64,000 nucleotides of DNA from Micromonospora carbonacea (lineage in GTDB: Bacteria; Actinomycetota; Actinomycetes; Mycobacteriales; Micromonosporaceae): NCBI RefSeq assembly GCF_014205165.1, contig NZ_JACHMZ010000001.1, positions 372,001-436,000 of the forward strand. Direction: 5' to 3'. Shown here in pieces: positions 8,189-12,722 of this stretch. A program made the translations under genes and the position numbers. A model generated the notes under the pieces. That model was not told the DNA's origin and searched no databases. It worked only from the letters and a program-made list of their open reading frames with translations. Positions within the stretch are counted from its first letter, which is position 1, and every line of letters begins with the position of its first letter.

Positions 8189-9667
8189 GTGTCGGTGCTG
8201 CGTACCAAACCGATCAAGGACGTGATAGCCCAGGGCGAGGCGGACGGTGAGGGCGGCGGCCCCGGCCTCAAGCGCCGACTCGGCGCGCGTGACCTCACCG
8301 GCTTCGGCATCGGCATCGTCATCGGCACCGGGATCTTCACGCTTACCGGCATCGAGGCCCGCGACAGCGCCGGTCCCGGCGTGGTGATCTCCTTCGCCAT
8401 CGCGGGCGTGGTCGCGCTGCTCGCCGCCCTCTGCTACGCCGAGCTGGCCTCCAGCGTGCCGACCGCCGGCAGCGCCTACACCTACGCCTACGCGACGATG
8501 GGCGAGATCGTCGCCTGGATCATCGGCTGGGACCTGCTGCTGGAGTTCGCCCTCGGCGCGGCGGTGGTGGCCCGCGGCTGGTCCGGCTACCTCGCCGAGC
8601 TGCTCGGCCTGCCCACCGCCTGGTTCGGCGAGGAGGGCAGCATCGTCAACGTCGGCGCGATCGCCGTCGTGCTGCTGCTCGGCGTCGTGGCGATCGTCGG
8701 CATCCGCGAGTCCGCCCGGGTCACCAACCTGCTCGTGCTGGTCAAGGTGGCCATCTGCGTCTTCATCGTGGTCGCCGGCCTGTTCTTCGTGAAGGCCGCG
8801 AACCTCACCCCGTTCATCCCGCCGGCCGAGCCCGCCGGGGCCGGCGACGACGGGATCAAGCAGCCCGTCACCCAGGCGCTGTTCGGGCTGGAGCCGTCCG
8901 TGTTCGGGTTCGTCGGCGTCCTCAGCGCCGCCGCCGTGGTCTTCTTCGCGTACACCGGCTTCGAGGCCGTGGCCAACCTCGGCGAGGAGACCCGCCGGCC
9001 CAAGCGCGACCTCACCCTCGGCCTGCTCGGCACGCTGCTGGTCTCCACCGTGCTCTACATCGGCGTCTCGCTGGTCGTCGTCGGCATGGTCCCCTACACC
9101 GAGATCGACCGGGGCGCGCCGATCGCGTCCGCCTTCAACGCGGTCGGGGCCGAGTGGGCCGGCATCCTCGTCTCCATCGCCGCCGTCGCCGGCCTGACCA
9201 GCGTCATCCTCGTGGACCTGGTGGCCATGGGCCGGATCGGCTTCGCCATCAGCCGCGACGGGCTGATCCCGCCGTCGGTGGCGAAGGTGCACCCGCGCTT
9301 CGGCACCCCGTACCGGATCTCGGCCGTCATGACGGTGGCCGTGGCGCTGCTCGCCGGCTTCCTGCCGCTGTCGGCCCTGGCCGACCTGGTCAGCATCGGC
9401 GCGCTCTGCGCGTTCGTGCTGGTCTCGGTGGCCGTGCCGATCCTGCGCCGCAAGCGCCCCGACCTGGAGCGGCCGTTCCGGGTGCCGTTCTCCCCGGTGC
9501 TGCCGATCGTCTCCGCGCTGGCCTGCCTCTACCTGATGCTCAACCTGTCGGTGGAGACCTGGATCCGGTTCCTCGTCTGGATGGCGCTCGGCGGGATCAT
9601 CTACTTCGGCTACGGCTACCGCCGCAACCGCCTGGCGCGCAAGGAAGGGCCCCCTGTTAACGCCTGA
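8189..9667 (+). CDS. APC superfamily amino acid permease (cationic amino acid transporter-like)
   Basis: Integral membrane amino acid transporter of 492 residues. GTG at 8189 is chosen because GGGAGGGG (8173-8180) sits about 8 nt upstream; a GTG at 8180 overlaps that site. Motifs: LGARDLTGFGIGIVIGTGIF (TM1 substrate-binding unwound region), AALCYAELASSVPTAGSAYT (TM2), FFAYTGFEAVANLGEET (TM6), and about 12 hydrophobic segments ending FGYGYRRNRLARK. The family (YhdG/CAT) carries cationic or broad amino acids; the substrate is not readable. The last eight residues, KEGPPVNA, are encoded by a genome repeat. Confidence 0.92.
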   Translation: MSVLRTKPIKDVIAQGEADGEGGGPGLKRRLGARDLTGFGIGIVIGTGIFTLTGIEARDSAGPGVVISFAIAGVVALLAALCYAELASSVPTAGSAYTYAYATMGEIVAWIIGWDLLLEFALGAAVVARGWSGYLAELLGLPTAWFGEEGSIVNVGAIAVVLLLGVVAIVGIRESARVTNLLVLVKVAICVFIVVAGLFFVKAANLTPFIPPAEPAGAGDDGIKQPVTQALFGLEPSVFGFVGVLSAAAVVFFAYTGFEAVANLGEETRRPKRDLTLGLLGTLLVSTVLYIGVSLVVVGMVPYTEIDRGAPIASAFNAVGAEWAGILVSIAAVAGLTSVILVDLVAMGRIGFAISRDGLIPPSVAKVHPRFGTPYRISAVMTVAVALLAGFLPLSALADLVSIGALCAFVLVSVAVPILRRKRPDLERPFRVPFSPVLPIVSALACLYLMLNLSVETWIRFLVWMALGGIIYFGYGYRRNRLARKEGPPVNA

Positions 9668-9691
9668 GGTAGAGAAGGGTCCCCTTCTCAC
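9641..9691 (+). repeat. intergenic repeat, copy 2 (partly coding)
   Basis: AAGGAAGGGCCCCC then TGTTAACGCC, followed by the partner arm AGAAGGGTCCCCTTCTCAC. The first half lies inside the permease reading frame and supplies its final codons and stop; the second half lies just downstream. It is the same family as the copies at 18.8, 44.4 and 58.7 kb in this orientation. Confidence 0.8.
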
Positions 9692-9748
9692 CCCCGCCGC
9701 CCGGATGGGCGCGGGGTGGCGGCGCGGGACGGTGGCGGGGGCGGGGGG

Positions 9749-9758
9749 GTGTCCCTAT
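9749..9758 (-). repeat. ATAGGGACAC direct repeat at the IS110 3' end
   Basis: Ten bases identical, in the same orientation, to 11068-11077 in the 5' non-coding region. Read with the bridge RNA model this is the left-donor end of the element matched by its RNA guide. Confidence 0.55.
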
Positions 9759-9766
9759 GGGTTTCG

Positions 9767-10966
9767 TCAAGCGGTGGCGGGGCTGGTGGGGCGTGGTTGG
9801 TAGGGGATCTTGTTGCGGAGCATGGCGTGGAGGACGTCGCAGCGGCGGCGGGCGAGGCAGATGAGGGCGGCGTTGTGGCGTTTGCCTTCGGCGCGTTTGC
9901 GGTCGTAGTAGGCCCTGCTCACGGGGTCGGCGAGGGCTGCGAAGGCGGCGAGGAAGAACGCGCGTTTGAGGTTCTTGTTGCCGCCCCTTGGCGGGTGTTC
10001 GCCGCGGATGCTGCTGCCGGATCGTCGGGTTACCGGTGCCAGGCCGGCATAGGCGGCGAGGTGGCCGGGGGTGGCGAAGGCGGTGCCGTCGCCGACTTCG
10101 AGGAGGATCCGGGCTGCGGTCCTGACGCCGATGCCGGGCATCGAGGTCAGGACCGGGGCAAGAGGGTGCGCATCAAGCATCCCCTCGACCTGAGCGCCGA
10201 TCTGGTCACGCTGGCGCAGAGTCTCGCGGAGGCTGTCGGCGAGGCGAGGCAGGATCGTCTCGGCCGCTTGGGTGCCGGGAACGGTGACGGTCTGCTCGTC
10301 CAGGGCGGTCATGATCTGCTCGACGAGCCGTTCACCCATGCGGGGTGCGTGTGCTGTGGCGATCGAGGTCAGTTTGCGGCGGCCGGCTTTGCGCAGCCCG
10401 GCGGGTCCTCCGCAACGGGACAGCAGCTCCAGTACCGCTTTGTGGTGCACCTTAGGGCCGAGGACTCGTTCCAGCGCGGGGTGGATCTGCGTCAGCAGGC
10501 CCCGTATCCGGTTCGATATCCGGGTGGCTTCGCCGGCGAGGTCGTCGTCGAAGCCGACGAGAACTTCCAGCTCAGCCAGGGTCTCGTCGCCGGTGTCGAC
10601 CCGCCGCAGCGTGTGCGGCAGGGTACGAGCCGCGTCAGCGATGACGTACGCGTCTCTGGCGTCGGTCTTCGCCGAACCTGGGTGCAGGTCAGCGATCCGG
10701 CGCATCGCCAGCCCGGGCAGGTAGGCCACCTGATGCCCGCACGCCCGAGCCACCGCCACCGGCAGGGCACCGATCGAGGCGGGTTGGTCGACCACGACCA
10801 GGACCTGGCCGTGACGGGAGAGTTTGTCGAACAGTTGCCGCAGCCGGGCCTCGGTGTTCGGTAGCGGCGCGTCGTGCAACCGTCTGCCGTCCGGGGTCAA
10901 CCCGACCGCGTGGTGATCACCCTTGCCGACGTCCAAGCCGAGGTAGACACCGTATCCGTCGTGCAC
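9767..10966 (-). CDS. IS110 family transposase
   Basis: DEDD-type recombinase of the IS110 family, about 400 residues. Of several in-frame GTGs (10981, 10969, 10966) the ones at 10969/10966 follow GGAGG at suitable spacing; 10966 is used. The N-terminal RuvC-like domain starts GVYLGLDVGKGDHH (first Asp), then VVVDQPASIGAL, and KTDARDAYVIADAAR (DxxxD-type acidic pair). A helical linker follows. The C-terminal Tnp domain has MPGIGVRTAARIL and AYAGLAPVTRRSGSSIRG, containing the catalytic-serine candidate, then GGNKNLKRAFFLAAFAAL. The frame is intact and full length, so it may be active. Confidence 0.95.
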   Translation of the reverse strand: MHDGYGVYLGLDVGKGDHHAVGLTPDGRRLHDAPLPNTEARLRQLFDKLSRHGQVLVVVDQPASIGALPVAVARACGHQVAYLPGLAMRRIADLHPGSAKTDARDAYVIADAARTLPHTLRRVDTGDETLAELEVLVGFDDDLAGEATRISNRIRGLLTQIHPALERVLGPKVHHKAVLELLSRCGGPAGLRKAGRRKLTSIATAHAPRMGERLVEQIMTALDEQTVTVPGTQAAETILPRLADSLRETLRQRDQIGAQVEGMLDAHPLAPVLTSMPGIGVRTAARILLEVGDGTAFATPGHLAAYAGLAPVTRRSGSSIRGEHPPRGGNKNLKRAFFLAAFAALADPVSRAYYDRKRAEGKRHNAALICLARRRCDVLHAMLRNKIPYQPRPTSPATA

Positions 10967-10984
10967 CACACCCGCCTCCACGCA

Positions 10985-11205
10985 TCACTCGTGGCCCCGG
11001 CCGCAGTCTGGGCGTCGGACTGCCGGCAGCCACGTTACGAAGAGACCTACCCCAACACGGGGCGGCCGTGTCCCTATCAGCGGTCCGCCGACGCCACCCG
11101 ACCCGGCGACAACACCCCCCGGATCATCGAAACGACAGGGGCAGGAAGTCATACCGGGCCGGGCGACCGAGGGTCCCCGACTGGGGACGATCAAAAAGGT
11201 AACGG
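10985..11205 (-). ncRNA. candidate IS110 bridge RNA region (transposase 5' non-coding end)
   Basis: About 220 nt directly upstream of the transposase, where IS110-group elements encode the bridge RNA. In transposase orientation it contains, in order, a stem-loop GTCCCC-AGTC-GGGGAC (around 11173-11188), a GGGGGGTGT segment (11120-11112) that is the exact complement of ACACCCCCC at the 3' junction (9752-9744), and about 45 nt later ATAGGGACAC (11077-11068), identical to the 3' end of the element. This is the order expected for a target loop then a donor loop. Exact RNA ends cannot be set from sequence alone. Confidence 0.45.
11068..11077 (-). repeat. ATAGGGACAC repeat inside the IS110 5' non-coding region
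   Basis: Second copy of the 10-nt sequence found at 9749-9758. Its position, 90 bp upstream of the transposase and inside the candidate bridge RNA, fits a donor-loop guide better than a target-site duplication. Confidence 0.5.
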
Positions 11206-11210
11206 GGGCG

Positions 11211-12722
11211 CTACGCGGCGGCGGGGGCGAAGCGCAGCAGGTTCCAGGAGACCGCCGGCAGCAGCACCGCGCAGCGGCCCCCGTCGGGGGCGGGGGCCGC
11301 CAGCTCCCGGGGTGCGACCCGGTCGGGCTCGGCCTCGGTGTTGACGGCGTCCGGGTCGGCTGCGGCGGCGAGGGTGAGGTGGGCCGCCCCGGCCAGGGCG
11401 GGCAGGCCGCGCAGGTCCAGGTCGAGGGGGAGGTCGGCGGGGCCCCGGTTGACCGCGAGGACGGTGAGCGCGCCGGTCTCCTCGTCGTGCAGGGCCACGG
11501 TGTCCAGCACCGGGACGTCCCCGTAGCGCTTGGTGGCGTACGTCGGGCAGACCGGCTCGGTGCGCAGCACGGTGCCCCGGGCGTGGCGGGCGGTGAGGGC
11601 GAACGGGTGGAAGATGCTCTGCCGCCAGGCGGGACCGCCGGTGCGGGTGCGGATCGGGGCGATCACGTTGGCGAGCTGCGCCTGGCAGGCCACGCCGACC
11701 CGGTCGGCGTGCCGGAGCAGGGTGATCAGCAGGTCGCCGACCACCACCGCGTCGACGGCGGTGTAGTCGTCCTCGATGAGGGTGGGGGCCTCGACCCAGC
11801 CGCGCCGGTCCAGGTCGGCCTGGAGGCGGGACTGGTACCAGACGTTCCACTCGTCGAACGAGATCTTCAGCTTGCGCCGGTGCCGCTGCTTCGCCGCCAC
11901 GTGGTCGGCGGTGGCGACCACCTCCGCGATGAAGTGGTCCATGTCGACGGCCGAGGCCAGGATGCTGGCCCGGTCGCCGTCGGCGGGATCGTAGTAGGTG
12001 TGCGCGGAGATGTAGTCCACGTGCTCGTAGGTGTGCTCCAGCACCGTCGCCTCCCAGGAGGCGAAGGTCGGCATGCCCCGGCCGGAGCTGCCGCAGGCGA
12101 CCAGGCTGACCGAGGGGTCGATCAGCTTCATCGCGCGGGCGGTCTCGGCGGCGAGCCGGCCGTACTCGTCGGCGGTCTTGTGCCCGACCTGCCACGGGCC
12201 GTCCAGCTCGTTGCCCAGGCACCACAGCCGCACCCCGTAGGGCTCGGGCGCGCCGTGGGCGCGGCGCAGGTCCGACAGCCGGGTGCCGCCGGGGTGGTTG
12301 GCGTATTCCAGCAGGTCGCAGGCCTCCTGCACACCCCGGGTGCCGAGGTTGACGGCCATCATCGGCTCGACGCCGGCCGCCGTCGCCCAGGTCATGAACT
12401 CGTCGAGGCCGAAGGCGTTGGTCTCGATCGTCTTCCAGGCGAGGTCGAGCCGGCGGGGCCGGTCGGCGACGGGGCCGACGCCGTCCTCCCAGCGGTAGCC
12501 GGAGACGAAGTTGCCGCCGGGGTAGCGGACCACGGAGACGCCCAGCTCCCGGGTCAGCTCCAGCACATCGCCGCGCAGGCCGTGCGGGTCGGCGGTGGGG
12601 TGGCCGGGCTCGTAGATCCCGCCGTAGACGCAGCGCCCCAGGTGCTCGACGAAGGACCCGAAGATCCGCCGGTCGGCCGGCCCGATCGCGAAGGCCGGGT
12701 CGATGGTCAGCTTCGCGGTCAC
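11211..12722 (-). CDS. alpha-L-arabinofuranosidase, glycoside hydrolase family 51
   Basis: Releases terminal arabinofuranose from arabinoxylan or arabinan oligosaccharides; intracellular (no signal peptide). 503 residues from GTG 12720-12722, with AAAGGTGGA about 7 nt upstream. Typical GH51 features: IFGSFVEHLGRCVYGGIYEP at the N-terminus, VVRYPGGNFVSGYRWEDGVG, acid/base Glu in WCLGNELDGPW, and nucleophile Glu in KISFDEWNVWY. The C-terminal beta domain ends at VSWNLLRFAP. Length and architecture are normal. It is divergent from a LacI regulator with an operator inside its promoter. Confidence 0.94.
   Translation of the reverse strand: MTAKLTIDPAFAIGPADRRIFGSFVEHLGRCVYGGIYEPGHPTADPHGLRGDVLELTRELGVSVVRYPGGNFVSGYRWEDGVGPVADRPRRLDLAWKTIETNAFGLDEFMTWATAAGVEPMMAVNLGTRGVQEACDLLEYANHPGGTRLSDLRRAHGAPEPYGVRLWCLGNELDGPWQVGHKTADEYGRLAAETARAMKLIDPSVSLVACGSSGRGMPTFASWEATVLEHTYEHVDYISAHTYYDPADGDRASILASAVDMDHFIAEVVATADHVAAKQRHRRKLKISFDEWNVWYQSRLQADLDRRGWVEAPTLIEDDYTAVDAVVVGDLLITLLRHADRVGVACQAQLANVIAPIRTRTGGPAWRQSIFHPFALTARHARGTVLRTEPVCPTYATKRYGDVPVLDTVALHDEETGALTVLAVNRGPADLPLDLDLRGLPALAGAAHLTLAAAADPDAVNTEAEPDRVAPRELAAPAPDGGRCAVLLPAVSWNLLRFAPAAA

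Follow-up and report, generated by a model that had tools for sequence, protein, structure and literature searches.

Bridge RNAs of IS110-family elements have been in print since 2024 (PMC11208160, PMC11208158). In IS621, the right target guide (RTG), core and handshake bases form a 9-nt stretch that pairs after strand exchange with donor positions 6–9 and target positions 10–14, and pairing of the handshake bases ahead of strand exchange blocks recombination (PMC11208158). Insertions at donor-like sites constitute a minority class for IS621 (PMC11208160), and a promoter at the junction is reported for the seekRNA element ISEc21 (PMC11187229).

Here, we describe an IS110-group element in a 64,000-nt stretch of the Micromonospora carbonacea genome (hereafter, the window). 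Short motifs in the leader of this element had been proposed, from the letters of the window, to be bridge-RNA guides. Our analysis confirmed the observation and supports its interpretation; very probably, the locus is an IS110-group insertion sequence of Micromonospora whose guide RNA targets runs of C.

The element, its ends and its copies

The window contains a complete IS110-group element of 1455 bp (GTTACC...GGGAC+AC, 9749–11203, minus strand), delimited by comparison of copies and by the empty sites of a sister family; the 7.53-Mb, single-contig host genome carries three copies, identical across all 1455 bp. Its recombinase gene (9767–10981, minus strand, 404 aa) was assigned using Pfam, NCBIfam and a structure-sequence match. 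The protein combines a DEDD RuvC-like domain (DEDD_Tnp_IS110, PF01548, 163.6 bits, cut-off 29) with a Transposase_20 domain carrying the catalytic serine (PF02371, 81.4 bits, cut-off 21.3), and it scores 237.6 bits (cut-off 140) against the NCBIfam model ‘IS110 family RNA-guided transposase’ (NF033542). IS621 and ISCro4 are the sole solved structures matched by its sequence, and its SGSS motif aligns with the IS621 serine. Significant similarity to the IS621 recombinase is confined to the C-terminal part; in the N-terminal alignment, which is not significant, the DEDD glutamate of IS621 lies opposite an aspartate (D65, VVDQPAS).

A noncoding leader of 222 nt precedes the gene and a tail of 18 nt follows its stop codon, giving the long noncoding left end and short right end expected of the IS110 group. 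In the IS1111 group the long right end holds the guide RNA, whereas here the right end comprises 18 nt and the guides lie in the left end. Inspection by eye revealed no inverted repeat between the two ends. The element starts 7 bases past the stop codon (11213–11211) of the upstream gene, which we take to encode an arabinofuranosidase. Just past its other end, positions 9616–9748 comprise a dispersed repeat of ~55–130 bp, parts of which matched at least 39 other places in the genome.

The exact ends follow a rule derived from the sister family, found in genome G310 (L163–L165), whose recombinase is 55 % identical to that of the window element. Two empty sites of this family in the same genome read TGGCACCCCTCTG; the sister unit is therefore exactly GTTACG...GGGAC+AC. 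By this rule and by copy comparison, the window element (all features on the minus strand) has its right donor, the left end GTTAC, at 11199–11203, its left donor, the right end ATAGGGAC (66/68 family copies), at 9751–9758 and its donor core AC at 9749–9750. Outside the element lie the left target AGCGCCC with the target core CC (11204–11212, from sequence and family comparison) and the right target CCCCC (9744–9748). The original prediction had placed an IS110 element at 9744–11205; the assignment stood, while the mobile unit shrinks to 9749–11203 and CCCCC at 9748–9744, formerly counted as part of the element, is target instead. Read in transposase orientation past the stop codon (TGA, 9769–9767), the sequence from 9758 on is ATAGGGACACCCCCCC.

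Further copies were gathered from 160 congeneric genomes and from 354 genomes of the family Micromonosporaceae (the latter again including congeners), many truncated matches being left out. Among the copies fetched, 79 (75 % or more identical) had a right end that could be recognised, and 68 distinct ones were readable at both ends. The 11 excluded comprised nine in which GTTAC was missing from its expected position, one whose flank contained N and one duplicate; eight other window-family copies lacking the right-end pattern were dropped, and the tandem pair L066 was counted as one. The copies share the left end GTTACC and the right end ATAGGGAC, next to which stand AC and a series of C's. The core is followed by CCCCC in 58/68 copies and by five bases with at least four C in 65/68; beyond these five, C falls to background frequency (31/68), and CCC stands directly before GTTAC in 63/68. 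Thus, an unchanged GGGGGGTGT beside differing 3′ flanks, which had been named as the pattern that would speak against a guide, was not seen. Deviating right targets occur in 10/68 copies (TCCCC, CCCAC, CTCCC, GTTAC and others). GTTAC in this position (L044, in two genomes as L044/L046, and L161; junction GGGACAC-GTTAC(G/C)) is, to judge from the junction, a donor-like site.

Several copies have unusual surroundings. In L040, L153 and L170, a second CCCGTTACC lies immediately left of the element's own left end, and L066 (G076) consists of two tandem copies, the second directly after the terminal C-run of the first. Short repeats of the GATCTTGCACTTT or GATCATGAAGTTGG type were noticed by eye beside many copies (L002, L034, L038, L042, L060, L061, L063, L076–L080 and others); these are presumably intergenic hairpins in C-rich spacer DNA.

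Guides of the predicted bridge RNA

The leader RNA folds at −96.9 kcal/mol, against −84.0 (sd 4.3) for shuffled sequences (z −2.97; 1/200 shuffles as low), and the predicted fold contains two internal loops. In a consensus of 46 distinct leaders, from which L047 and L071 were left out on account of a foreign 5′ half, 2407/2438 cells were paired and 6/53 pairs had changed on both sides. The consensus is a supportive, rather than strong, indication of a structured RNA, with modest support from compensatory change. On fold and consensus, the predicted bridge RNA spans approximately 11013–11190 (minus strand) and begins with a 5′ stem-loop, GUCCCC AGUC GGGGAC (11173–11188, minus strand). An Rfam search of the element returned no match up to E = 1; there was therefore no ready covariance model, and permutation of the flanks was used instead.

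Four guides were placed in this RNA, all on the minus strand. The left donor guide (LDG, AUAGGGACAC, 11068–11077) matches the element's 3′ end at 9758–9749 exactly. The original prediction expected ATAGGGACAC to be invariant here, which holds for the first eight bases (67/68 copies); the full ten are kept in 34, with ATAGGGACCC in 32 and ATAGGGACAG and TAAGGGACAT in one each. The right donor guide (RDG, GUAACGUGG, 11038–11030) is the complement of CC-AC-GTTAC: GUAAC reads the left end, GU the core AC and GG, as handshake, the CC of the target. It is kept in 68/68 copies. Both donor-loop guides thus match the element's own ends. The RTG (GGGGGGTGT, 11120–11112) matches at 9/9 positions as GGGGG-GU-GU against AC-AC-CCCCC, i.e. 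five bases for the right target (CCCCC), two for the core (AC) and two for the handshake on the donor end. Exactly 43 nt before the LDG, 56/68 copies carry GGGGGGTGT, eight carry GGGGGTGTT (shifted by one base), three CGGGGGTGT and one GGGGGGTGG. The left target guide (LTG, CCUGCCCC, 11138–11145) was positioned by homology to 12 other families. It matches the window copy's own left target at only 5/8 bases, its distal part CCUG mismatching the left flank; G at −6 is rare in flanks (5/68 copies). The fit of both target-loop guides to their targets is accordingly one seen across families, the window alone giving 9/9 for the RTG and 5/8 for the LTG.

These placements bear out much of what had been read by eye. 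Both motifs were found where they had been reported (ATAGGGACAC at 11077–11068, GGGGGGTGT at 11120–11112), and the strand sense, the pairing sense and the order of target loop before donor loop agree with IS621. The reading of GGGGGGTGT as a right-target guide applies to five of its nine bases, two others reading the core and two the donor end. That GGGGGGTGT spans right target, core and donor-reading handshake explains the overlap over ACAC; the core, though, is better read as AC than as ACAC, the other two bases belonging to the donor and facing the handshake guide. The left-target and right-donor guides, which had not been resolved by eye, are now both placed, the RDG through 68/68 copies and the LTG by position.

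We then compared guides and flanks across 13 families, i.e. the 12 of 19 protein clusters that have the right-end pattern, plus locus L190. Right ends were anchored by TTGAC...AT[AT][AG][GA]G, and the seven clusters in which no such end was found (including one of 27 loci and one of nine) were left out; the left-end register was set by eye from complementarity to the RDG and was always NNTA[CG]. The 9 nt located 41–47 nt before the LDG match each family's own end and flank at 9, 8, 8, 8, 7, 9, 9, 9, 7, 7, 9, 9 and 8 positions. The mean is 8.23, against 4.40 for mispaired families, where 2/156 combinations reach 8; none of 200,000 permutations equalled it. The window RNA scores 9/9 against its own end and at most 6/9 against those of the 12 other families (distance to the LDG, 41–47 nt). 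The five target bases alone match at 4.54/5 (2.60 when mispaired; 0/100,000 permutations) and the LTG matches the left target at 6.85/8 (4.83; 0/100,000), while the LDG likewise gave 0/100,000. The RDG score of 6.85/7 was not counted as evidence, its test being circular because the left ends had been located by RDG complementarity.

Could the matches be chance products of a G+C-rich leader, the protein itself picking the target? The G-run is of low complexity and each match extends over only 7–10 nt, and longest-match tests without anchored ends gave a weak result across all 19 clusters (723 and 1551 of 100,000 permutations). We agree with the original prediction that the G-run match is weak by itself. 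In the unanchored tests, however, many 3′ ends are misplaced, and anchoring the ends gave the strong result. The anchored permutations over 13 families, the RTG–LDG distance (43 nt in 10/13 families, 44 in two and 46 in one) and the matching target changes in the sister family make chance hardly credible as an explanation.

The sister family resembles the window family in its GTTAC left end and in the kind of its donor guides, and in G310 it likewise joins a donor core AC to a target core CC. It differs in its target (TGGC[A/T]CCC-CTCTG), which lies beside another repeat, and in its LTG (AUGGCUCC) and RTG (CAGAGGUG). A further member, L185 of Plantactinospora endophytica, has the same LTG as the G310 sister and a left flank of ATGGCTCCC followed directly by GTTACT; its right end was not found. 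The expected covariation of guide with flank therefore exists between families, in the permutation tests and in the sister family. It does not appear within the window family because the target there hardly varies.

This covariation also bears on whether the C-run belongs to the element. If the six C after GGGACA were element sequence, GGGGGGTGT would pair with its own end and there would be no right-target guide. Six C is the commonest case (33/68 copies), and the C preference ends sharply after the sixth, as an element end would also give. Yet the equivalent bases of the sister family, CTCTG, are target by its empty sites, the five bases past the core covary with the RNA in 13 families, the ten deviating copies lack CCCCC, and a copy in a CRISPR array (L003) shows a net gain of three C rather than six if its spacer was 33 nt long. 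We consider it very improbable that these bases are part of the element, and retain the reading of CCCCC as right target.

The core mismatch and insertion into C-runs

In 11/13 families the core dinucleotide is equal at both ends (TC, GT, GC or CC), whereas in the window family and in the sister family the left end carries CC and the right end AC. Across the 68 copies (left/right), 59 are CC/AC, five CC/CC, three TC/AC (all in one genome) and one AC/AC, with no AC/CC; the right end thus has AC in 63/68 and the left end CC in 64/68. IS110-group elements use the same core dinucleotide in target and donor, which the window family does not; as the second core base agrees, we regard this as a departure in detail rather than a defining failure. 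Four relatives of the AC/AC copy (L048) that align up to the junction also carry the left AC, and the left core is therefore the target's own. The pattern fits what inheritance of an IS621-like top-strand product would be expected to leave.

An alternative arrangement would have the core CC at both ends, with GTTACC and GGGACAC as the element's ends and two more C gained per insertion. L003 speaks for it: the 16 intact spacers in the fetched stretch of its array are all 33 nt, the interrupted spacer measures 1490, and a CC core restores exactly 33 nt, while our end rule leaves 35 nt, two C too many. The required CC is absent, however, in L051 (GGGACAC-TCCCC), L079 (GGGACAC-CTCCC) and L044/L161 (GGGACAC-GTTAC), the sister empty sites give a shorter unit, RDG and RTG both read AC, and the spacer of the circle promoter would become 20 instead of 18. 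A shared CC core is thus improbable, if a little less so than an element that includes the C-run, and we retain the CC target and AC donor cores.

L003 is not the only copy whose C count sits awkwardly with the end rule. A copy in G305 (L177 with L136) lies in another CRISPR array and leaves no more than 26 nt, the usual length there being 32; the two arrays, whose repeats we presume to be I-E-like, belong to different genera. L068 interrupts a gene that we take to encode an ISAs1-type transposase and has 15 flanking C, while 22/22 relatives show no run of more than three C near the site. These misfits could stem from slippage of the homopolymer or from exchange out of register within it. Codon-phase G+C, used as a reading-frame ruler, could be applied to only four of 57 copies, which did not agree in their answers; one of the four, L137, proved to lie outside a gene.

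Empty sites were also sought for individual copies. For the window copy, 14/41 other genomes matched the left gene and 11 loci were read, in which conservation does not extend past the gene. Forty genomes yielded none for L048 (six others have partial matches, four of which reach the junction with a right side that differs from the L048 flank) and none for L044, whose left flank matched in its far part alone. Five orthologous loci were found for L137, with a short intergenic stretch that is too diverged, and L083, in a repetitive gene, gave no clean unit.

The scheme that we infer from the computed ends, guide–flank matches, target preference and core difference comprises transcription, circle formation, cut positions taken over from IS621 and an effect on direction. 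The element would be excised as a circle, whose abutted ends GGGAC-AC-GTTACC would form a promoter transcribing the leader. An outward −35 box, TTGACG (9765–9770, minus strand), would on closure lie 18 nt from TACCTT (11201–11196). The pattern TTGACn-17/18-TAnnnT was present in 13/13 circle junctions reconstructed from the sequences of the 13 families, where TTGAC belonged to the right-end search pattern and the −10 box and box spacing did not. A promoter scan of the integrated window copy found none, in line with the idea that closure of the circle is needed to bring the boxes together. The junction predicted by the scheme is GGGACAC-GTTACC. The RNA would then fold into the 5′ stem-loop, a target loop (LTG 11145–11138, RTG 11120–11112) and a donor loop (LDG 11077–11068, RDG 11038–11030), and recombinase and RNA would connect the donor junction with a target of about eight consecutive C (CCC-CCCCC). 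Top strands would be cut after the core, and after exchange the RTG would pair with donor AC-AC and target CCCCC (9/9), favouring insertion.

An all-G guide on a C-run would pair at positions 6–9 before exchange, the state that blocks IS621. On the C-run, the RTG is predicted to be mismatched at positions 8 and 6 until exchange and fully paired thereafter. Because pre-exchange handshake pairing blocks IS621, we propose that the U's at positions 8 and 6 may be an adaptation to the homopolymer. More tentatively, and with rather more doubt than confidence, the bridge RNA as a whole might be so adapted, U8 and U6 avoiding the ‘locked’ state and the CC/AC mismatch acting as a one-way insertion ratchet and a natural strand marker. 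If true, the marker would place the inherited crossover 3′ of the core in nearly every event.

Some copies carry nested insertions. Four in G305 (L176–L179; also L082, L136, L138 and L139) share an identical 2358-bp insertion after GTTACCT, which contains a second IS110-family transposase (413 aa) and a methyltransferase-like frame. Only GTTACCT of the left end adjoins the target in these copies. The right target is CCCCC in every one of them, which suggests that the enlarged unit remains mobile although no more than ~8 bp of the left end lies beside the target. We rejected the idea that this derivative is cargo captured by a new left end, as comparison shows a nested insertion just after GTTACCT. 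One of the G305 copies lies on a 22.8-kb contig at the same site as the uninterrupted chromosomal copy L137, and this shared site may reflect exchange. A long frame that we assume to be RHS-like (L176, 3722–7660, plus strand) overlaps the left junction of one G305 copy. In G220, two ~90 % identical copies (L253 and L254; also L156 and L157) carry a related insertion (2243 bp as measured in L253) in the target loop, between LTG and RTG; both nonetheless sit at C-run targets, and their bridge RNA may act in trans.

Comparison with IS621 and ISEc21

Titles and abstract openings in the literature outside subscription papers revealed no IS110 element with a C-run target or a fixed core mismatch, and none on the IS110 family in Micromonospora; as a weak negative, this suggests that a C-run target with a fixed core mismatch may be new among bridge-RNA elements. 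IS621-type recombinases are under development as programmable DNA-insertion tools, with matched cores and non-homopolymer targets as the working rule. A natural family that joins CC targets to AC donors at C-runs is relevant to two questions, namely how strict this rule is for the core and whether the guide can encode direction. Readable guide–flank pairs from 13 families offer ready-made material for tests, and the element shows a route by which such insertion sequences enter C-rich intergenic DNA and CRISPR arrays.

The ISEc21 seekRNA (PMC11187229) resembles the predicted RNA in being an upstream ncRNA that matches both target strands and specifies a particular target. ISEc21 likewise forms a circle, in which the ends abut and the junction carries a promoter; both features are predicted for the window element. 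ISEc21 differs in target and host, and RNAs of 74 nt and 58 nt are described for it, while the RNA of the window element is a predicted one.

With IS621 (PMC11208160, PMC11208158), the window element shares a long 5′ leader RNA, a 5′ stem-loop, a target loop before the donor loop and the same strand senses of LTG, RTG, LDG and RDG. Handshake bases follow RTG and RDG in both, RTG, core and handshake add up to 9 nt in both, and both have a minority of insertions at donor-like sites. Against this, IS621 recognises an 11-bp target of mixed sequence and the window element a C-run, to whose recognition its LTG, unlike that of IS621, adds little beyond C's. Finally, IS621 uses the core CT in both target and donor, whereas the window element joins a CC target to an AC donor, differing in the first base.
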